Part shown: piece by piece, positions 1-46,984 of the stretch
Position numbering within the stretch: the stretch's first letter is position 1
Layout: each line of letters starts with the position of its first letter
Assembly: GCF_003415675.1 (NCBI RefSeq)
Contig: NZ_QFZK01000002.1
Span: 248,001-312,000 of the forward strand
Direction of reading: 5' to 3'
Source of the DNA: Rhodoferax lacus
GTDB taxonomy: Bacteria; Pseudomonadota; Gammaproteobacteria; Burkholderiales; Burkholderiaceae_C
DNA length: 64,000 nucleotides
The notes under the pieces: generated by a model
Databases searched by the model: none
Seen by the model: the letters and a program-made list of their open reading frames with translations, nothing else
What the model was told of the DNA's origin: nothing
Translations under genes and position numbers: made by a program

Positions 1-333
1 TCTGACGGTGCGAGCTTTCGCATTCCCTTCGAGCTGATGCGCGTGTATTCGCCCTCGGCCGAAGTGGCGGGCCACGGCCCGGGCCAGGAAACCCTTCAGA
101 CGGGCAAGCGCCTGGTGGACCTGACCGGCCTGGAGCCGGTGGGCAACTACGCCGTGCAGCCACGCTTTTCGGATGGCCACGACACCGGCCTTTTCTCCTG
201 GGACTACCTGTACTTCCTGGGTTCGCAGCAGGAGCAACTGTGGGCCGACTATGAGCAACGCCTGCAGGCCGCCGGCGTGCACCGCGATGCGCCCATGCCC
301 GAAAAAGGTGGTCATAGCTGCGCCAGCCACTGA
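1..333 (+). CDS. DUF971 family protein, 3' part
   Basis: The reading frame is open from the first base and ends in TGA at 331-333, so the N-terminus lies outside the window. The visible 110 residues contain the pattern typical of DUF971 (the domain also found at the N-terminus of gamma-butyrobetaine hydroxylase): FELMRVYSPSAEV, then a conserved GNYAVQPRFSDGHDTGLFSW segment and DYLYFLG. Biochemical role is unknown; the fold is thought to bind metal or act in iron-sulfur chemistry, but that is family knowledge only. It lies 118 bp upstream of ubiE in the same direction, an arrangement common in Burkholderiales. Confidence 0.85.
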   Translation, partial: SDGASFRIPFELMRVYSPSAEVAGHGPGQETLQTGKRLVDLTGLEPVGNYAVQPRFSDGHDTGLFSWDYLYFLGSQQEQLWADYEQRLQAAGVHRDAPMPEKGGHSCASH

Positions 334-1205: not shown

Positions 1206-2177
1206 ATGAAGTGGTCTGTGTCCGCGGTAGTTTTGACTCTCGCTTTGGCCTTGGGTGGCGTAAACGCCGAGGCCGCCAAGCGCCTGGGCGGTGGGGGCTC
1301 GTTTGGCAAGCAGTCGAGCAACGTGACACAGCGCAGCACGGCACCAGCGGCTCCCGGCGCGCCTGCGCAAAGTGCGACCAACGCAGCCAAGCCGGCACCG
1401 GCGGTGGCCCCTGCGCCTGCACGCCGTCCCTGGGGCGCCATGCTGGGCGGCCTGGCTGCTGGCTTGGGACTTGCCTGGCTGGCCAGTTCGCTGGGTATGG
1501 GCGAGGCCTTTGGCCAGATTCTGATGTTTGGTCTGTTGGCCTTGGGGGTGATGATGTTGGTGGGCTTCATCATGCGCAAGCGCAATGCGGCCCCGGCCGC
1601 TGCACAGCGTAGCCCTTTCGCCTTCCAAGGTGCTGGCGGAGCGCCTGTGCCCCAAGCCTACCGGCCCGAAAATGTGGGTAACGATGCCTCGGCCCGGCCC
1701 TTTGAGCGCAGCAACCTGACGCCCATTGAATCGGGTGCCGGTGGTAGCTCGATGATTGGCTCCGCCCTGCAGGGTTCGCAGAACTGGGGTGTGCCTGCAG
1801 GTTTTGACAGCGAAGGCTTTCTGCGCGCGGCCAAGGGAAATTTTGTCACCCTGCAGGCGGCTTGGGACCGCTCCGACATCCCCGCGCTGCGCGCCATGAT
1901 GACGGACGGCATGCTGGGTGAAATACGCACCCAGTTGGCTGAGCGCGAAGCCCACACCGGCACAGCACCCAATAGCACCGAGGTGGTGATGATCGAAGCC
2001 CATCTCTTGGGTATCGAGGAGTTGGCCGACGAATATATGGCCAGCGTGGAGTTCTCCGGCATGATCCGCGAAGAACCCTCGGCCGGACCCAGTCCGTTCC
2101 GTGAAGTCTGGAACATGACCAAACCAAAAAGCGGCAACAGCGGCTGGCTGGTTGCCGGCGTGCAAGCGCTGCAATAA
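1206..2177 (+). CDS. Tim44-like domain protein, membrane-anchored
   Basis: A 323-residue protein with an N-terminal signal or anchor (residues 1-24), a low-complexity Ala/Pro linker (about 45-75), two hydrophobic segments (about 78-95 and 103-123) and a C-terminal Tim44/TIM44-like domain (about 185-321) that contains the conserved FLRAAKGNFVTLQAAWDRSD stretch and ends in GWLVAGVQAL. Tim44-like proteins in bacteria are of unknown function; conserved placement between ubiE and ubiJ-ubiB suggests an inner-membrane role linked to quinone synthesis or lipid handling, which is inference. A GGAG ribosome-binding site (TTGGAGCTTGT) precedes the ATG. Confidence 0.88.
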   Translation: MKWSVSAVVLTLALALGGVNAEAAKRLGGGGSFGKQSSNVTQRSTAPAAPGAPAQSATNAAKPAPAVAPAPARRPWGAMLGGLAAGLGLAWLASSLGMGEAFGQILMFGLLALGVMMLVGFIMRKRNAAPAAAQRSPFAFQGAGGAPVPQAYRPENVGNDASARPFERSNLTPIESGAGGSSMIGSALQGSQNWGVPAGFDSEGFLRAAKGNFVTLQAAWDRSDIPALRAMMTDGMLGEIRTQLAEREAHTGTAPNSTEVVMIEAHLLGIEELADEYMASVEFSGMIREEPSAGPSPFREVWNMTKPKSGNSGWLVAGVQALQ

Positions 2178-39407: not shown

Positions 39408-39457
39408 GTTCGGGCGAGTGCTGAGAGGCTGATTGCGGTCTTGTTCGCTCGCTCGCT

Positions 39458-39531
39458 GCGGTGCAAGGGCTATGCCGGGCTCCTCATGGTGGAGTACCGC
39501 AAATCGTCGCCCAGCATAGCCCTTACACCGC
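39458..39531 (+). repeat. Structured repeat family 1, copy C
   Basis: Arms 39458-39480 and 39509-39531 are inverted repeats matching at 21 of 23 positions, and both mismatches are C/T changes that would leave G-U pairs in one strand's RNA. They enclose a 28-nt module, 39481-39508: 8 nt TCCTCATG, a 12-nt mini-hairpin GTGG-AGTA-CCGC (one G-T wobble), and 8 nt AAATCGTC. The innermost GGGC/GCCC of the arms is shared with other copies; the outer arm sequence is not. Confidence 0.88.
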
Positions 39532-39688
39532 GAGTGTGGGTTGGCCGAGGTTCAAAAGCCACTGAGCAGAAAGGTAGGCTGCTGAAGATGGGTGGAGTTG
39601 CTCAGAGTGACTGATTGCCAGTAATCAATGGGTTAATTTCGATGTCGGGTTTGCCGCGTTTGCGGTCATACGTCTTTTTCGCTCGCGG

Positions 39689-39762
39689 CGCGGGAAGGGG
39701 GTAGGCCGGGCATCTCATGGCGGGGTACCGCAAATCGGCGCCCGGCCTACCCCCTTCCCGCG
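39689..39762 (+). repeat. Structured repeat family 1, copy B
   Basis: Arms 39689-39711 and 39740-39762 are a perfect 23-bp inverted repeat with a sequence different from the other copies outside the inner GGCCGGGC. The 28-nt module, 39712-39739, reads ATCTCATG, mini-hairpin GCGG-GGTA-CCGC, AAATCGGC. It has the same orientation as copy C. Confidence 0.9.
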
Positions 39763-39852
39763 CGACCCCCGTGTGAACCCGCGATTCAAGACAGTGCGCG
39801 TCGGTTGTACGGTCGGTGTTTGGTATTTTTCGTCAAGCGCAGCCGCGCCCCA

Positions 39853-39930
39853 GTGAGCAGGAGGGACAAGGGCGGGCGACGATTTGCGGTACTCCGCCAT
39901 GAGGAGCCCGCCCTTGCCCCTCCTGCGCAC
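39853..39930 (-). repeat. Structured repeat family 1, copy A (inverted)
   Basis: Arms 39853-39877 and 39906-39930 are inverted repeats matching at 23 of 25 positions. The module, 39878-39905, read on the minus strand is TCCTCATG, GCGG-AGTA-CCGC, AAATCGTC, 28 nt. It lies opposite in orientation to copies B and C, and its outer arms are unrelated in sequence to theirs. Confidence 0.9.
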
Positions 39931-40080
39931 CCACCCGCCGGTGCGAGATCTCTGACCGCCAGATACCGGACGTATTTGAAGACCCGCTTCCAGCCCTTCA
40001 GAGCCTTTCTCGGCCAAGGCCGCAACAGTTTCTTACGCTGTACCCCTGACTTCCCTCTCCGCAACCAACCCCTAACCCTG

Positions 40081-40227
40081 GCAGGTGATGCGGGTGCCCG
40101 GGCGCAGGCCCCCATTCGCGGTTGCCACAGAGCAGGCCAGACAGCACGTAGTTAACGCAGCAACGCAGCAGCACCCAAAGCAGCCGCCCGCGAGCAGGGC
40201 CGGAGAACGGGTACCCGCATCGCCTGC
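40081..40227 (-). repeat. Structured repeat family 2, copy 2 (inverted)
   Basis: Arms 40081-40100 and 40208-40227 are inverted repeats at 18 of 20 positions and enclose a 107-nt core. The minus-strand core begins TTCTCCGGCCCTGCTCGCGG and ends with CTCTGTGGCAACCGCGAATG plus GGGGCCTGC, closely matching copy 1 near 28.1 kb; the middle is less conserved but shares a GTTAAC. The arms share only short patches with those of copy 1. Confidence 0.82.
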
Positions 40228-40331
40228 CTCCCACAAAAGCAGGCGCGTGAATCCATAAAAGTTGGAGCGCAAATCCACAAGAACAGGCACGCAACCACCC
40301 AAGGCCGCAACGCCAATTGCCGCACCGCGTC

Positions 40332-40367
40332 ATTCAATCCCCGAATCAAGCCATGTAGCGATTCAAT
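40332..40367 (+). promoter_or_regulatory. Candidate regulator-binding site upstream of the formate cluster
   Basis: ATTCAAT occurs at 40332-40338 and again at 40361-40367, 29 bp apart, with GAATC (the reverse of GATTC) between them at 40343-40347. Such spaced, partly inverted half-sites about 110-140 bp before the first gene of the MFS-fds unit would suit a LysR-type activator. The assignment rests on pattern and position only. Confidence 0.25.
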
Positions 40368-40472
40368 TGGACGGCTATCAGTCCGGCGTCCGATACTCCG
40401 CCCACGCCGCAAAGACGTCAGTGAATGTCGCGCCGTCAATAGACTCAAAAACATAAACACGTAGGAGACACC

Positions 40473-42116
40473 ATGACAACTGCATCCCCCGGGCTGCTCG
40501 ACAAAGAGCGCATCATTGCCGGCCCCGGCTTCAACCGCTGGCTGGTACCCCCGGCAGCGCTGGCCATTCACCTGTGTATCGGCATGGCCTATGGCTTTTC
40601 CGTGTTCTGGCTGCCTTTAAGCAAGGCACTCGGCATCAAAGAGGCCATCAAGTGCGGGCCCGAGGTGGGCTTTATGGGCCAACTCTTCACTACTACCTGC
40701 GACTGGCAAATCTCCACCCTGGGCTGGATGTACACCCTGTTTTTTGTGCTGCTCGGCTCCAGTGCTGCCACCTGGGGTGGCTGGCTGGAACGGGCCGGCC
40801 CGCGCAAGGCCGGTGTGGTGTCGGCCGTGTGCTGGTGCGGCGGCATGCTGATCTCGGCATTGGGCGTGTACCTGCACCAGTTCTGGATGATGATTCTGGG
40901 CTCCGGCGTGATAGGCGGCATTGGCCTGGGCCTGGGCTACATCTCGCCCGTGTCCACGCTGATCAAGTGGTTCCCGGACCGCCGCGGCATGGCCACCGGC
41001 ATGGCCATCATGGGCTTTGGCGGCGGCGCCATGATCGGCTCACCCCTGGCGGCTGACCTGATGAAATACTTTGCCACCCCCACCGATGTGGGCGTGATGC
41101 AGACCTTCATCGTGATGGCGCTGATCTACTTTGTCTTCATGATGGCGGGTGCCTTTGGCTACCGCGTGCCCGAGACCGGCTGGATGCCCAAGGGCTGGAG
41201 CGCGCCCACGGGCCAGACCGCCAACGTCATGATCACCAAAAAGCATGTGCATGTGAAGAAGGTCTGGGGCATTCCCCAGTTCTGGCTGATCTGGATGGTG
41301 CTGTGCATGAACGTGAGTGCGGGCATTGGTGTGATCGGCATGGCCTCGCCCATGCTGCAGGAGGTGTTTGGCGGCTCGCTGATTGGCGTGGCCAAGAAGT
41401 TTGGTGAACTCGACAAGGCGCAACTGGCCTCCATTGCCACCGTGGCCGCCGGCTTTACCGCGCTCTTGAGCCTGTTCAATATCGGCGGGCGCTTCTTCTG
41501 GGCCAGCCTGTCCGACAAGCTGGGCCGCAAGCTCACCTATGTGGTGTTCTTTGTGCTGGGTGGTGCCATGTACTTCAGCGTGCCCGGCAGTGCCGCAGCG
41601 GGCAGCACGGTGCTGTTTGTGTCGGCCTTCTGTGTGATTCTGAGCATGTATGGCGGCGGCTTTGCCACCGTGCCGGCTTACCTGGCCGACATTTTCGGCA
41701 CGCAGATGGTGGGCGCCATCCACGGCCGCCTGCTCACGGCCTGGGCCACGGCGGGTGTGCTGGGCCCGGTGGTGGTGAACTACATGCGTGAGTACCAGCT
41801 TGGGCTGGGCATTCCGCGCGAGCAGGTCTACAACCAGACCATGTATATCCTGGTGGGTATGCTGGTGGTAGGTCTCATCTGCAACCTGCTTGTTCGCCCC
41901 TTGGACAACAAGTGGTTTATGACCGAAGCAGAATTGGCAGAAGAAAAGCGCCTGGCCCATGACAAGGCCGTGTCCAACGAGGTGCACCGCGCCAATGGCG
42001 GCGGCGCCGACACGGTCAGCCCCGCGGTGGTGGTGCTGGCCTGGGTGGCGGTAGGTGTGCCGCTGGCCTGGGGCGTGTACCGCACCCTGCTGAGCGTGGC
42101 CAAGTTTTTCGCCTGA
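40473..42116 (+). CDS. OFA-family MFS transporter (oxalate/formate antiporter type)
   Basis: A 547-residue major facilitator with about 12 transmembrane segments and the oxalate/formate antiporter (OxlT-like) layout: GMAYGFSVFWLPLSKALGI in TM1, the LGLGYISPVSTLIKWFPDRRG segment (quoted in part) after TM4 and GRFFWASLSDKLGRKLTYV between the halves. A longer periplasmic or cytosolic insertion (KEAIKCGPEVGFMGQ...CDWQ) follows TM1. Directly upstream of formate dehydrogenase genes it is likely to import formate or oxalate or exchange them. A strong AGGAG ribosome-binding site is 5 nt before the ATG. Confidence 0.92.
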   Translation: MTTASPGLLDKERIIAGPGFNRWLVPPAALAIHLCIGMAYGFSVFWLPLSKALGIKEAIKCGPEVGFMGQLFTTTCDWQISTLGWMYTLFFVLLGSSAATWGGWLERAGPRKAGVVSAVCWCGGMLISALGVYLHQFWMMILGSGVIGGIGLGLGYISPVSTLIKWFPDRRGMATGMAIMGFGGGAMIGSPLAADLMKYFATPTDVGVMQTFIVMALIYFVFMMAGAFGYRVPETGWMPKGWSAPTGQTANVMITKKHVHVKKVWGIPQFWLIWMVLCMNVSAGIGVIGMASPMLQEVFGGSLIGVAKKFGELDKAQLASIATVAAGFTALLSLFNIGGRFFWASLSDKLGRKLTYVVFFVLGGAMYFSVPGSAAAGSTVLFVSAFCVILSMYGGGFATVPAYLADIFGTQMVGAIHGRLLTAWATAGVLGPVVVNYMREYQLGLGIPREQVYNQTMYILVGMLVVGLICNLLVRPLDNKWFMTEAELAEEKRLAHDKAVSNEVHRANGGGADTVSPAVVVLAWVAVGVPLAWGVYRTLLSVAKFFA

Positions 42117-42146
42117 TCTTTTTATTACTGGTATTGGTAAGAGCAC

Positions 42147-43964
42147 ATGCATCCTTCTGCAGCCCCTGATGTGAAGCCCGTGACCCTGGGCACGGTGGAC
42201 GATATGCGCGAGCGCATCCGTCGCAAAAGCAAACTCAAGGGGCGACAGCCGGATGATGTGTCTCTGGCCGAGGTGCGCGCCCTGATCGGGGCCGCACCGC
42301 ACCGGCGCGACCTGCTCATCGAGCACCTGCACAAGCTCAACGACGCCTACCGCTGCCTGCATGACCGGCACCTGGTGGCCCTGGCCCGCGAGATGAACAT
42401 CCCCATGGCCGAGGTCTACGAAGTAGCCACCTTCTATCACCACTTTGAGGTGGTGAAGGGCGACGCCGCCGCACCGGGCTTGACCGTGCGCGTGTGCGAT
42501 GGCCTGAGCTGTGAGCTGGCCGGTGCCCAGGATTTGCTCAAACGATTGCCCGCGTTGTTGGGCAGCACCGATGTACGTGTCATCCCCGCACCCTGCCTGG
42601 GCCGCTGCGAGCAGGCCCCGGTGGCCGTGGTGCACCAGCACCCGGTGCCACAGGCCACGGTGGAGTCTGTGGCCAGCGTGGTCCAGGCCGCCCAAGCCCA
42701 GCATCCGCAGGCGCGCATGGACAGCGTGTTTGTGGCGTCTGCCCTGGCCGAGCGCAGTGTCTCGCCCGAGCCGCATGCGGTGGACGTGGCGCCAGACTAC
42801 ACCGGCTACGATGCCTACCGGGCCCATGGTGGCTACAGCCTCGCTGCCGCCTTGGTGAATGGCGAGCACGATGCCGAAGCCGTCATCAAGGCCATGGAAG
42901 ACTCGGGCCTGCGCGGTCTGGGCGGGGCAGGCTTTCCGGCCGGGCGCAAGTGGCGCATCGTGCGCGACCAGCCCGCACCGAAGCTGATGGCGGTGAACAT
43001 CGACGAGGGCGAACCCGGCACCTTCAAGGACCGCACCTACCTGGAGCGCGACCCGCACCGTTTTCTGGAAGGCCTGCTGGTGGCAGCCCAGGTGGTAGGC
43101 ATCGAGAGTTGCTACATCTACCTGCGCGACGAGTACCATGGCTGCCGCGCCATCCTGGAGGCCGAACTGGCCCGGCTGTACGCCAACCCGCCATGTCCCT
43201 TGCCGCACATTGAACTGCGCCGCGGCGCTGGTGCCTATATCTGCGGCGAAGAGTCCGCCATGATCGAGAGCATTGAAGGCAAGCGCGGCGAGCCGCGCAT
43301 GCGCCCGCCCTACATCGCCCAGGTCGGCCTGTTTGGCAGGCCCACGCTGGAGCACAACTTCGAGACCCTGTACTGGGTGCGCGACATTGTGGAAAAAGGC
43401 GCAGGCTGGTTCAGCAGCTTTGGCCGTAACGGCCGCAAGGGGCTGCGCAGTTTCAGCGTGAGCGGGCGCGTCAAGCTGCCCGGCGTGAAGCTGGCGCCTG
43501 CAGGCATTACGCTGCGTGAGCTGATTGCCGAATACTGCGGCGGCATGCAGGACGGCCACACGCTCTACGCCTACCTGCCCGGTGGCGCCTCGGGCGGCAT
43601 CTTCCCCGAAAGCCTGGCCGATGTGCCCCTGGACTTTGACACCCTGCAGCCGCATGGCGGCTTCATCGGCTCGGCCGCAGTGATTGTGCTGAGTCAGCAC
43701 GACTCGGCGCGCGACGCCGCCCTGAACATGATGCGTTTCTTCGCGCATGAGAGCTGCGGCCAGTGCACGCCTTGCCGCGTGGGCACCGTCAAGGCGGCCA
43801 CGCTGATGGAAGCCCATGTCTGGGACACAGAGACCCTGGAAGACCTCAACCAGGTGATGACCGACGCCTCGATTTGCGGCCTGGGTCAGGCGGCGCCCAA
43901 CCCGGTGCGCTGCGTGGTGAAATATTTCGCGCACGAAGTACGCGGCGCAGGAGCAGCAGCATGA
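42147..43964 (+). CDS. fdsB: NAD-dependent formate dehydrogenase, fused gamma-beta subunit (FdsG-FdsB)
   Basis: A 605-residue fusion of a NuoE-like and a NuoF-like subunit that passes electrons from FdsA to NAD+. Residues about 1-170 form the [2Fe-2S] thioredoxin-like domain (VRVCDGLSCELAG and APCLGRCEQAPV supply four Cys). Residues about 215-600 are NuoF-like: GLRGLGGAGFPAGRKW (NADH site), NIDEGEPGTFKDR (FMN site) and ESCGQCTPCRVGT ([4Fe-4S] site). In many bacteria these are separate fdsG and fdsB genes. The stop overlaps the fdsA start (ATGA). Confidence 0.94.
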   Translation: MHPSAAPDVKPVTLGTVDDMRERIRRKSKLKGRQPDDVSLAEVRALIGAAPHRRDLLIEHLHKLNDAYRCLHDRHLVALAREMNIPMAEVYEVATFYHHFEVVKGDAAAPGLTVRVCDGLSCELAGAQDLLKRLPALLGSTDVRVIPAPCLGRCEQAPVAVVHQHPVPQATVESVASVVQAAQAQHPQARMDSVFVASALAERSVSPEPHAVDVAPDYTGYDAYRAHGGYSLAAALVNGEHDAEAVIKAMEDSGLRGLGGAGFPAGRKWRIVRDQPAPKLMAVNIDEGEPGTFKDRTYLERDPHRFLEGLLVAAQVVGIESCYIYLRDEYHGCRAILEAELARLYANPPCPLPHIELRRGAGAYICGEESAMIESIEGKRGEPRMRPPYIAQVGLFGRPTLEHNFETLYWVRDIVEKGAGWFSSFGRNGRKGLRSFSVSGRVKLPGVKLAPAGITLRELIAEYCGGMQDGHTLYAYLPGGASGGIFPESLADVPLDFDTLQPHGGFIGSAAVIVLSQHDSARDAALNMMRFFAHESCGQCTPCRVGTVKAATLMEAHVWDTETLEDLNQVMTDASICGLGQAAPNPVRCVVKYFAHEVRGAGAAA

Positions 43965-46900
43965 ACGCCCCCACCAAGCTCAACGAAGTCACACCCGCAA
44001 CGGTCACCTTCACGCTGGACCAGAAGACCATCCACGCCTTTGAGGGCGAAACCATCCTGAAGGCCGCCAAGCGCCACGGCATCGACATCCCGCACCTGTG
44101 CTACAAGGACGGCCTGCGCGCCGACGGCAACTGTCGCGCCTGTGTGGTGGAGATCAAGGGCGAGCGCACCCTGGCGCCGAGCTGCTGCCGCAATGCCACC
44201 GCCGGCATGGAGGCCTTGGCCAACAGTCCGCGTGCTATCAAGAGCCAGAAGATGGTGCTGGAGATGCTGCTCTCCGACATGCCGGATGTGGGCTACAAGT
44301 GGAATGACGCGGAAGATAAACCGTCGGTGCACCCAGGTTCCTCTGACACGGCGGTGACAGTGGGCGGGCCGGGTGACGATTTGCGCTCGCGCCATGAGGA
44401 GCCCGGCCTGCCCGCTGGCGCCGCCGGGGCAGAGGCGATCACCCATAACGCAACAAATACAAAAACAACAGGCCAACACGGCGAACTCAGCGACTGGGCC
44501 AGCCGCATGGGCGTCACGGTACGTCCCCAACTCAAAGCCCTCCGAAGAGAGCAACCCAAGGCCGACGTTTCACACCCCGCCATGGCCGTGAACCTGGATG
44601 CCTGCATTCAGTGCAACCGCTGCGTGCGCGCCTGCCGTGAAGAACAGGTGAATGATGTCATCGGCTACGCCATGCGCGGCTCGCACAGCGAGATCGTGTT
44701 TGACCTGGGCGACCCCATGGGCGATAGCACCTGCGTGGCCTGCGGCGAATGTGTGCAGGCCTGCCCCACGGGCGCACTCATGCCCAAGACGCAAATCGGC
44801 TCGCAAGTCGTCGACAAAAAAGTCGACTCGGTCTGCCCCTTCTGCGGCGTGGGCTGCCTGCTCACCTACAACGTCAAGGACAACAAGATCGTCAGCGTGG
44901 ACGGCCGCGACGGCCCGGCCAACCACAGCCGCCTGTGCGTCAAGGGCCGCTTCGGCTTTGACTACGCGGCCAGCCCGCAGCGCCTGACTGTGCCGCTGAT
45001 ACGCAAGGCCGGTGTCGCCAAAGACCCGGCCCTGCTGCAAAACCTGAACCGCGACAGTGCCGACTGGTCCGAGGTATTCCGCGAAGCCACCTGGGAAGAG
45101 GCTTTGTCATTCTCCGCAGGCAGCCTGGTGCGCCTGCGGGACACCCATGGCAAGAAATCGCTCGCCGGTTTTGGCTCGGCCAAGGGCAGCAACGAAGAGG
45201 CCTATCTGTTCCAGAAGCTGGTGCGCACCGGCTTTGGCAGCAACAACGTGGACCACTGCACCCGCCTGTGCCATGCCTCCAGCGTGGCGGCCCTGTTGGA
45301 GGGCGTAGGCTCCGGCGCGGTGAGCAACCAGGTCAACGACGTGCAGCACTCGGACCTGATTTTTGTCATCGGCTCCAACCCCACGGCCAACCATCCCGTA
45401 GCCGCCACCTGGATGAAGAACGCCGCCAAGCTGGGCGCAAAAATCGTGCTGGCCGACCCGCGCATCACCGACATCGGCAAGCACGCCTGGCGCACCCTGC
45501 AGTTCAAGCCCGACACCGATGTGGCCATGCTCAATGCACTCATCCACGTTGTGATTGAAGAGGGCCTGGCCGACCAGGACTTCATTGCCAAGCGCGCCAA
45601 CAATTACGAGGCCTTGCGCGAGAACGTCAAGGGCTACAGCCCCGAGGCCATGGAGCCCATCTGCGGCATTCCGGCCCAGACCCTGCGCGAAGTGGCGCGC
45701 GCCTATGCCAGCGCCAAGGGCGCCATGATTCTCTGGGGCATGGGCATCAGCCAGCATGTGCACGGCACCGACAATGCGCGGTGCCTGATCGCACTGGCCA
45801 CAGTCGCCGGCCAGATCGGCAAGCCGGGCTCTGGCCTGCACCCTTTGCGCGGTCAGAACAATGTGCAGGGCGCATCCGACGCCGGACTCATCCCCATGAT
45901 GTTCCCCAACTACCAGCGCGTGACCAACAAAAGCGCACACGCCTGGTTCGAGAACTTCTGGGACACCAAGCTCGACGACCAGCCCGGCTACACCGTGGTG
46001 GAAATCATGCACAAGGCGCTGGCCCCGGAGAGTGACCCACACAAGATCCGCGGCATGTACATCATGGGCGAGAACCCCGCCATGAGCGACCCCGACCTGA
46101 ACCATGCGCGCCACGCGCTGGCCAGTCTGGAGCATATGGTGGTGCAAGACATCTTCATGACCGAAACCGCCTGGCTGGCCGACGTGGTGCTGCCCGCCAC
46201 CGCCTGGCCGGAGAAGACCGGCACCGTCAGCAATACCGACCGCATGGTGCAGCTCGGCAAGCAGGCTATTCAAGCGCCGGGACAGGCCAAACCCGATCTG
46301 TGGATCATCCAGGACATTGCCCGGCGCATGGGCCTCAACTGGAATTACGAAGGCGAGTTTGACGGCGTGGCCGCTGTCTATGACGAAATGCGCCAGGCCA
46401 TGCATGCGGCCATCTCGGGCATTACCTGGGAGCGCCTGCAGCGCGAGTCCAGCGTCACCTACCCCTGCCTGAGCGCGGAAGACCCGGGAGCACCCACCGT
46501 GTTCCTGGATAAATTCGACACCACGGACGGCCGCGTCAACCTGGTGCCTGCCGACATCATTCCGGCCAACGAGCGGCCCGATGCGGACTTCCCCTTTGTG
46601 TTGATCACCGGCCGCCAGCTGGAGCATTGGCACACCGGCAGCATGACGCGCCGCGCGGTGGTGCTGGATGCTATCGAACCGATGGCCACGGCCTCCCTGT
46701 GCGGTGCCGACCTGGTCGCCTTGGGGCTGGAGGCAGGCGATGTGGTCACGGTGCAGTCGCGCCGCGGCGAAGTGGCCATCCATGTGCGGCGCGATGACGG
46801 CACGCCGCGCGGTGCGGTGTTCATCCCCTTTGCCTACTATGAGGCAGCAGCCAACCTGATGACCAATGCGGCGCTGGACCCGTTTGGCAAGATCCCCGAG

Positions 46901-46984
46901 TTCAAGTACTGCGCCGTGGCCATACGCCGTGGCGGCACGCCCACGTTTGTGGCGGGCTACGGCACGGCGGCACTGGCGGCCTGA
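43961..46984 (+). CDS. fdsA: NAD-dependent formate dehydrogenase, molybdenum-containing alpha subunit
   Basis: Catalytic subunit oxidising formate to CO2. The 1,007 residues include an N-terminal [2Fe-2S] domain (CYKDGLRADGNCRAC), a His/Cys and two-[4Fe-4S] ferredoxin region (CIQCNRCVRACREEQ, CVACGECVQACPTGAL), a further CPFCGVGC cluster and the bis-molybdopterin domain with catalytic Cys-His in VDHCTRLCHASSVA. The start at 43961 is set by the ATGA overlap with the gamma-beta gene. It is about 45-50 residues longer than FdsA proteins as I remember them (about 960). The excess lies in residues about 119-171, between GYKWNDA and QHGELSDW, and contains a translated copy of structured repeat family 1. 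Confidence 0.95.
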   Translation: MNAPTKLNEVTPATVTFTLDQKTIHAFEGETILKAAKRHGIDIPHLCYKDGLRADGNCRACVVEIKGERTLAPSCCRNATAGMEALANSPRAIKSQKMVLEMLLSDMPDVGYKWNDAEDKPSVHPGSSDTAVTVGGPGDDLRSRHEEPGLPAGAAGAEAITHNATNTKTTGQHGELSDWASRMGVTVRPQLKALRREQPKADVSHPAMAVNLDACIQCNRCVRACREEQVNDVIGYAMRGSHSEIVFDLGDPMGDSTCVACGECVQACPTGALMPKTQIGSQVVDKKVDSVCPFCGVGCLLTYNVKDNKIVSVDGRDGPANHSRLCVKGRFGFDYAASPQRLTVPLIRKAGVAKDPALLQNLNRDSADWSEVFREATWEEALSFSAGSLVRLRDTHGKKSLAGFGSAKGSNEEAYLFQKLVRTGFGSNNVDHCTRLCHASSVAALLEGVGSGAVSNQVNDVQHSDLIFVIGSNPTANHPVAATWMKNAAKLGAKIVLADPRITDIGKHAWRTLQFKPDTDVAMLNALIHVVIEEGLADQDFIAKRANNYEALRENVKGYSPEAMEPICGIPAQTLREVARAYASAKGAMILWGMGISQHVHGTDNARCLIALATVAGQIGKPGSGLHPLRGQNNVQGASDAGLIPMMFPNYQRVTNKSAHAWFENFWDTKLDDQPGYTVVEIMHKALAPESDPHKIRGMYIMGENPAMSDPDLNHARHALASLEHMVVQDIFMTETAWLADVVLPATAWPEKTGTVSNTDRMVQLGKQAIQAPGQAKPDLWIIQDIARRMGLNWNYEGEFDGVAAVYDEMRQAMHAAISGITWERLQRESSVTYPCLSAEDPGAPTVFLDKFDTTDGRVNLVPADIIPANERPDADFPFVLITGRQLEHWHTGSMTRRAVVLDAIEPMATASLCGADLVALGLEAGDVVTVQSRRGEVAIHVRRDDGTPRGAVFIPFAYYEAAANLMTNAALDPFGKIPEFKYCAVAIRRGGTPTFVAGYGTAALAA
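44350..44425 (-). repeat. Structured repeat family 1, copy F, inside the fdsA coding sequence
   Basis: Arms 44350-44373 and 44402-44425 are inverted repeats at 20 of 24 positions. The module between them, read on the minus strand, is TCCTCATG, mini-hairpin GCG-CGAG-CGC (10 nt rather than 12) and AAATCGTC, 26 nt plus one unpaired base on each side. The 8-nt strands are identical to copy A. The element is in frame and is translated as residues about 130-155 of FdsA (Thr-Ala-Val... to ...Gly-Ala-Ala). Confidence 0.85.

Follow-up and report, generated by a model that had tools for sequence, protein, structure and literature searches.

A dispersed family of hairpins with a constant tip and freely varying, paired arms in Rhodoferax lacus and related bacteria

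Bacterial palindromic repeats are normally defined by the sequences of their stem and foot. According to the excerpted account of Di Nocera (2013; PMC3733652), REP/BIME repeats of the GTAG and CGTC superfamilies are dispersed palindromes, often arranged as inverted dimers, which lie near gene 3′ ends with a preference for convergent and codirectional gaps and also occur within genes, uvrA among them; alternative pairing residues in the stem are reported, as are G-T pairs. The hairpins described here share these traits. In that account, however, the stems are family specific, 5 to 13 bp long, and accompanied by a conserved, unpaired foot tag of 4 nt, whereas the present stems are near 24 bp and free in sequence, carry no foot tag, and have their conserved module at the tip. 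As the fold is conserved here and the stem sequence is free, ordinary sequence searches miss most of the family. Integron attC sites likewise have a single folded strand that is recognized and a stem that varies yet stays paired, but in them it is the base that is conserved; the attC R-box (GTTRRRY/RYYYAAC) was identified at the stem base in 5 and 4 of 99 feet, which does not place the present hairpins among attC sites.

The window, the whole 64-kb stretch of R. lacus DNA analyzed, holds four hairpins, all found where the initial annotation had placed them (Table 1). Their folding energies lay 3.3 to 9.9 standard deviations below those of dinucleotide shuffles, and E values against the covariance model ranged from 5e−15 to 3e−20; two of these hairpins also contribute rows to the model alignment, so their scores arise partly by construction. 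The apex pattern matched five times against 0.01 expected. Four matches were the known hairpins, and the fifth (44777), with unpaired arms (4 of 22), was rejected as a chance match. The hairpins at 39689 and 39853 together make up a single dispersed unit, one half each. The arms had been described as differing completely outside the inner GGGC/GCCC; this held for other copies, whose arms are unrelated, but two arm classes (GCGCGGGAAGGGGGTATGCCGGG and GCAGGAGGGGCAAGGGCGGG) recur across the whole genome. Hairpin 4 encodes the peptide GGPGDDLRSRHEEPGLPAGA, in the linker joining the 2Fe-2S and 4Fe-4S domains of its host ORF.

Table 1. Positions of the hairpins and associated features in the window
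Feature	Position	Strand	Details
Hairpin 1	39457..39532	−	Covariance model, 76.6 bits; shuffle folding test; strand listed is that of the putative functional fold, 5′-GACGATTT..CATGAGGA
Hairpin 2, arm class A	39688..39763	−	90.2 bits; left half of dispersed hairpin-spacer-hairpin unit
Spacer of dispersed unit	39764..39853	.	Resembles spacers of several other copies (CGACCCCCGTGTGAACC...GCCCCAG)
Hairpin 3, arm class B	39854..39929	+	83.9 bits; right half of dispersed unit
Hairpin 4	44351..44424	+	69.3 bits; in-frame within formate dehydrogenase alpha-type ORF
Host ORF of hairpin 4	43961..46984	+	Fer2_4, Fer4, and Molybdop_Fe4S4 domains within first 323 residues

The hairpin is ∼76 DNA letters long, with a constant tip and two arms that vary jointly while keeping their pairing. 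Its tip (CGAUUU-stem-YAUGAG) is fixed, as is the length of its arms, near 24 bp; the arm sequence is free. The covariance-model search proposed with the initial annotation identified 58 matches in the R. lacus genome. Among 399 genomes sampled from the host's family, 76 carry such hairpins. It was also found in 1 of about 195 other genomes of the order, and its host range is part of one betaproteobacterial family, probably the Comamonadaceae. A longer-tip pattern matched in 25 of 200 genomes of the order, 24 with unpaired arms (2 to 10 of 22) and one with 22 of 22. Matches to the loose pattern CTCATGN{8,14}AAATCG over the 399 genomes were mostly chance-like and were dropped from the distribution counts, and the scan across genome contigs yielded at least the number of matches listed. 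The exact tip pattern had no match in viral contigs, and BLASTN of one hairpin copy gave none in phages and plasmids. A literature search of partial coverage found no description of this hairpin family.

Arm pairing was the rule in further copies. Among 137 exact apex matches, a check unselected for pairing from which 4 matches at locus edges were dropped, 133 had paired arms when shifts of ≤2 nt were allowed and 128 without shifts, compared with 10.6% when arms were swapped. Covariation was assessed by structure pair counts with shuffled and slid controls. The alignment used held 68 nonredundant copies from the 175, out of 189 motif matches, that passed 14 of 22 pairs, and is therefore selected for pairing. 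Paired cells made up 96.5% of this alignment, compared with 56.4% in shuffles (0/500) and 38 to 47% in slid controls; double-change cells numbered 715 versus 193 (0/500 shuffles), with a covariation score of 0.98 versus 0.20. The number of pairs changed on both sides (27 of 28) was nondiscriminating, 82 of 500 shuffles reaching 27. Decayed and hybrid hairpins also exist (223 of 1,035 arm differences aside; 4 of 137 unpaired).

Mismatches pointed to one strand. G·U was more frequent than A·C (76 versus 6; p = 1.6e−16) only on the strand complementary to CTCATG, and this strand is therefore taken as the functional fold. The G·U:A·C counts were 76:3 where the functional strand was sense to the nearest gene end, 130:22 where it was antisense, 8:0 for hairpins in CDSs, 15:2 for unassigned hairpins, and 40:1 at uvrA-candidate loci.

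Orthologous loci with registered flanks in different genomes provided 111 comparisons of 75 hairpins from 49 genomes in 24 locus groups, with very divergent pairs such as L083/L128 left out. Two-sided arm changes exceeded expectation in all four flank-identity classes (14/5.2, 63/20.3, 54/20.7, and 36/18.3) and numbered 58 against 26.3 expected with one comparison per group (24 groups), the only set in which comparisons are mutually independent. Non-Watson-Crick members of one-sided differences were G·U in 147 cases, A·C in 27, and other in 121. Covariation, strand-specific G·U tolerance, and compensatory orthologous changes together support the earlier proposal that selection acts on the folded shape, whether of RNA or of single-stranded DNA, and suggest that what it preserves is the folded shape of one strand, not its sequence. 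Pairing tends to persist in copies staying at one locus, which a purely mobile element need not display.

Hairpins were also followed at particular genes. The uvrA-candidate set comprised 33 hairpins at 11 loci, 30 of them inside ORFs of ≥500 amino acids, and the gene holds hairpins in both orientations; the copies compared in this set are similar but come from different loci, some within one genome, and are not strict orthologues. Maintenance of the fold inside the uvrA coding sequence alongside amino acid changes is unusual. At parE, a hairpin was present at 2 of 110 sampled loci, with patchy positional conservation. In fdsA, with the linker extracted at 16 of 30 loci, class-A-like arms appeared and disappeared together with the element among congeners. 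The suggestion that the ends be defined from loci with and without the element was partly realized: parE-parC and fdsA gave both states, but no clean sister pair.

The two-hairpin unit was identified at ten places in the genome, with spacers alignable in most and weakly so in L016, L029, and L033, and recent copies at different places shared both arms and spacer. This arrangement is that of a REPIN, in which two inverted hairpins and a conserved spacer form the replicative unit. The functional strands of close pairs were (−,+) in 40 of 40, a single geometry, so that with its 58 matches the family has the form of a dispersed, multicopy palindrome in inverted dimers known from REPs. Intergenic hairpins (n = 162) lay in 110 codirectional, 43 convergent, and 9 divergent gaps, with a median distance of 49 bp to the gene whose 3′ end faces the hairpin, by counts that rest on a home-made gene finder; proximity to gene 3′ ends and rarity in divergent gaps are likewise REP features. 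The median stem of 24 bp falls outside the 5 to 13 bp of REPs. GTAG and CGTC foot tags occurred at background level (2 to 5% of 99 hairpin feet), no column beyond the arms exceeded 0.35 bits in 93 copies, and no target site duplication signal was found at hairpins.

A Y1_Tnp gene was detected in 67 of the 76 genomes with hairpins and in 225 of the 323 without (p = 0.0008, uncorrected for phylogeny); one of the nine hairpin-positive genomes where none was detected is a single contig. Within 20 Y1_Tnp regions (4.7 to 8 kb) of hairpin-positive genomes, one hairpin was identified, ∼3.9 kb from the gene, and with none adjoining, a RAYT as the neighboring gene was rejected. An autonomous element between pairs ∼940 bp apart (L148, L168, and L079) was also rejected, the intervening gene in L148 and L168 being superoxide dismutase-like and not a transposase.

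Among the candidates raised earlier, a shape-recognized mobile element fits best. With a probability of roughly 0.55, we regard the hairpins as a REP-like (REPIN-like) dispersed, nonautonomous family whose one-strand hairpin is recognized in trans through its tip. The structure, its strand specificity, the dispersal in the genome, the pair geometry, the 3′-end location, and the compensatory excess at orthologous loci are observed features. The working form on one strand would be 5′-[arm of about 24 nt]-G(A/C)-CGAUUU-[3-4 bp stem, short loop]-YAUGAG-G(A/N)-[arm]-3′. In its apex, an internal loop of specific sequence, which a drawing by hand can show as tandem G·A pairs, would be read by a factor acting in trans, and this factor would also require a helix of ∼24 to 26 bp below the loop; the sequence of this helix would be irrelevant to the factor, and the arms could therefore drift provided that they pair on the functional strand. 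The spreading unit would be two hairpins with functional strands outward. The folded strand would be DNA that becomes single stranded during replication, not RNA, and the recognizer may be an HUH-type (RAYT-like) or other protein.

More tentatively, the hairpins could belong to a system that operates across the genome and has not been described before. A factor of host or selfish origin would read the tip of the strand-specific hairpin and measure a helix of ∼24 to 26 bp of any sequence, and between-species selection would keep each chromosomal copy foldable, including those in uvrA. The hairpins would then be working single-strand landmarks, not decaying transposon copies. Natural covariation across many loci reveals which strand folds and which bases get read, making it directly testable whether REP-like hairpins are acted on as single-stranded DNA or as RNA, and by which protein, and the family offers a defined hairpin substrate with its complement as control.

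It is rather unlikely that the hairpins are instead RNA elements, in which transcribed 3′-untranslated or antisense RNA would fold, a protein such as a nuclease or termination factor would act, and paired units would block read-through between neighbors. Tolerance of G·U is a typical RNA trait, the hairpins adjoin gene 3′ ends and avoid divergent gaps, and the pair geometry sets each functional hairpin before a neighbor's 3′ end. Loops were of the CUUG/CUCG type in 33 of 33 copies at uvrA-candidate loci, a uniformity partly due to selection because 74-nt matches were the main source of these loci. However, the functional strand was frequently antisense to the adjacent gene (25 antisense and 14 sense among single codirectional copies; p = 0.11), the G·U asymmetry persisted in antisense copies, and uvrA holds both orientations. 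The T-rich tract that follows the stem in intrinsic terminators was absent; between +26 and +44 of the functional strand, T was the least frequent base, or shared that rank, at every position except one. Rfam also speaks against RNA, with 0 matches at gathering score in the window and, in permissive scans of nine loci, sub-threshold matches only, miRNA-like on hairpins.

Quasipalindrome template switching perfects imperfect palindromes and as a mutational process could keep arms paired without selection. Adjacent double changes were indeed about twice the shuffled level (runs of two, 10 versus 4.7; runs of three, 2 versus 0.4), but 51 of 63 runs were isolated pairs, a strand asymmetry that follows the orientation of the apex whatever the direction of the gene would be unexpected, and the conserved apex and narrow arm length would be left unexplained; as the main cause, this process raised by the initial annotation is improbable. 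Its further idea of insertion into pre-existing palindromes, taken here as an apical module entering terminator-like stems at gene ends, accords with the location beside 3′ ends and yet is very improbable: arm length is narrow (counted from k=3, the median is 24 bp, with 67 of 99 within 22 to 26 bp, 15 shorter, and 17 longer), recent copies at different places share arms and spacer, and the class-A-like arms of fdsA are gained and lost with the element.

Palindromes within coding sequences are known from other systems. Rickettsia palindromic elements likewise lie within protein genes, and the excerpted account (PMC3733652) describes no apex-conserved architecture with free arms for them. In Nematomorpha mitochondria, long inverted repeats are also kept within translated genes, but with conserved protein encoded in each of the two arms, and a shared tip is not among the features in the excerpted description (PMC6649704). 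In the REPIN/RAYT system, according to the excerpts drawn on (Bertels and Rainey 2011, PMC3116915; PMC8266576), the dispersed unit is likewise two inverted hairpins with a spacer, and TnpAREP recognizes a single-stranded hairpin (PMC8266576), as proposed here; a Y1_Tnp gene in most hairpin-positive genomes adds to the likeness. Recognition there runs through a foot motif and bulge (PMC3116915, PMC8266576), whereas here it would be through the apex, and the present hairpins have no GTAG motif and do not flank the Y1_Tnp genes examined. Although the foot tag, the short stem, and the adjacent RAYT gene are missing, the family resembles REP/REPIN repeats.

The four hairpins described in the initial annotation are all present at the positions it gave. 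They fold better than shuffled sequences (z, −3.3 to −9.9), and a covariance model whose alignment includes two of them as rows matched only these four places across the window, a fifth row being the opposite strand of one of them. The covariance-model search proposed earlier returned 58 matches in the host genome at an E value of 0.001 or better, with 150 of 1,844 first-look candidates scored. Apex variants within this genome retain CGATTT and YATGAG around a mini-hairpin of changeable length.

Coordinates of individual hairpins, in the window (1 to 4) or in fetched loci
Hairpin	Coordinates	Strand	Remark
1	39457..39532	-	
2	39688..39763	-	One unit with hairpin 3
3	39854..39929	+	One unit with hairpin 2
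4	44351..44424	+	Within formate dehydrogenase alpha-type protein, in the linker joining the 2Fe-2S and 4Fe-4S domains
Locus L031	1512-1595		Hybrid
Locus L387 (genome G488)	1501-1611		22/22 arm pairs, elaborated tip

A scan of the contig collection with the 24-base tip identified at least 112 stretches. Among the matches listed, 137 distinct ones had enough flank for the arms to be compared with shifts of up to 2 nt, and the paired arms expected of further copies were found in 133 (≥14 of 22 Watson-Crick pairs; mean, 19.7; 128 without a shift), whereas only 10.6% reached this level when arms were exchanged between copies. Across 68 copies with arms <75% identical, standard pairs filled 96.5% of cells (shuffled, 56.4%; slid, 38 to 47%), and the covariation suggested by the initial annotation was evident in 715 double-change cells versus 193 after shuffling. 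The bare count of pairs changed on both sides (27 of 28) was uninformative, because 82 of 500 shuffles also reached it. Pairing dropped beyond position 26 counted from the tip, and arms measured 22 to 26 bp in 67 of 99 hairpins (15 shorter, 17 longer).

Compensatory change was also observed at registered loci, in 111 comparisons between different genomes in which both hairpin flanks aligned in register. Two-sided arm changes exceeded the independent expectation at flank identities of 90 to 99% (14 versus 5.2), 85 to 90% (63 versus 20.3), 80 to 85% (54 versus 20.7), and <80% (36 versus 18.3), as well as with one comparison for each of 24 locus groups (58 versus 26.3). Both members were Watson-Crick in 134 of the 167 two-sided changes; in one-sided differences, the non-Watson-Crick members were G·U (147), A·C (27), or other (121). 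Double changes were mainly isolated (51 of 63 runs). Runs of two (10 versus 4.7 shuffled) and three (2 versus 0.4) were about double the shuffled number or more, so some concerted change may have taken place. Among the compared sites are gaps next to parE/parC and next to superoxide dismutase-, rpmG-, recX-, and clpB-like genes. Retention was patchy, with a hairpin at 2 of 110 sampled parE loci.

Arm mismatches read on the CTCATG strand were A·C in 76 cases versus G·T in 6, and A·C on this strand equates to G·U (or G·T) wobbles on its complement. With the complementary strand oriented to the nearest gene end, the bias was 130:22 in antisense and 76:3 in sense, greater for sense (p 0.013); it was 8:0 within genes, 15:2 for unassigned hairpins, and 40:1, plus 29 other mismatches, at uvrA-candidate loci (L034, L419-L424, L426, L429, L430, and L432). 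As the bias appears in every orientation, it is a property of the element rather than of transcription direction. The functional fold is that of one strand, complementary to CTCATG. Its internal loop can be drawn, as a model, as G·A, A·G, C-G, G·A, A·G, U·U, U-A, U·Y, and Watson-Crick or G·U pairs often substitute at the outer two positions.

Ten places on seven contigs of the host genome carry a hairpin-spacer-hairpin unit, and hairpins 2 and 3 of the window form one of the ten. Outer flanks of the units differ, yet L010, L023, and L032 have some tens of bases in common past the hairpins; the spacers of L016, L029, and L033 align weakly. Among 196 hairpins of fetched loci, functional strands were (-,+) in 40 of 40 close pairs, and seven larger groups read --+, -++, or --++. 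Two hairpins, those of L031 and L180 (an unpaired apex match among the 137), are hybrids with arms from different arm classes, which are therefore unpaired; recombination between the two members of a unit may have produced them. For 162 intergenic hairpins flanked by genes on both sides, our own simple gene finder, with related loci not thinned, gave 110 codirectional, 43 convergent, and 9 divergent contexts; the median distance to a neighboring gene ending towards the hairpin was 49 bp.

Some hairpins lie inside genes. The formate dehydrogenase (fdsA) linker that carries hairpin 4 in the window was extracted from 16 of 30 loci (L182-L211); in congeners it holds one hairpin, two, degraded copies, or none, in both orientations and with apparent deletions, and looks like an insertion hotspot. 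Five hairpins occur in the host genome's double-length UvrA and up to six in each UvrA-like ORF of other genera; similar copies from different loci showed 231 two-sided changes versus 60 expected. REPs are reported in uvrA of other phyla (PMC3733652). All 33 hairpins at uvrA-candidate loci have a 10-nt mini-hairpin (CUCG or CUUG loops), a uniformity due partly to selection, as these loci were chosen largely from 74-nt matches; most intergenic copies of the host genome have 12 nt.

Across the betaproteobacterial family, the proposed model search located hairpins in at least 76 of 399 genomes and at least 43 of 141 genera, a lower bound with 12 candidates scored per genome. Tip-bearing stretches, among the matches listed, were mostly from Limnohabitans, Rhodoferax, Polaromonas, and other Comamonadaceae or Burkholderiales MAGs. 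In an order-level sample, 3 of 200 genomes matched, 2 of them from the same family. The hairpin of G488, the remaining genome, from another family of the order, lies 19 bases past a transporter-like gene, and its mini-hairpin is replaced by a larger folded domain at the apex; arms were unpaired in 24 other matches to this longer-tip pattern, a useful negative control. The tip was also seen, among the matches listed, on contigs of MAGs labeled Cryomorphaceae, Akkermansia, and Chitinophaga (L070, L074, L081, and L157), probably through binning contamination. Viral contigs, phages, and plasmids gave no hairpin match at the sensitivities used.

We consider it somewhat more probable than its converse (roughly 0.55) that the hairpins are a REP-like dispersed element whose tip is recognized in single-stranded form; orientation-independence, we infer, favors single-stranded DNA over RNA. 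Y1_Tnp, the transposase type of the REP-linked RAYTs, was found in 67 of 76 hairpin-positive versus 225 of 323 hairpin-negative family genomes with phylogeny ignored, a co-occurrence that is suggestive only. The family departs from REPs and REPINs in three tests, namely, foot tag, stem length, and a flanking RAYT, but behaves as a REPIN-type element does.
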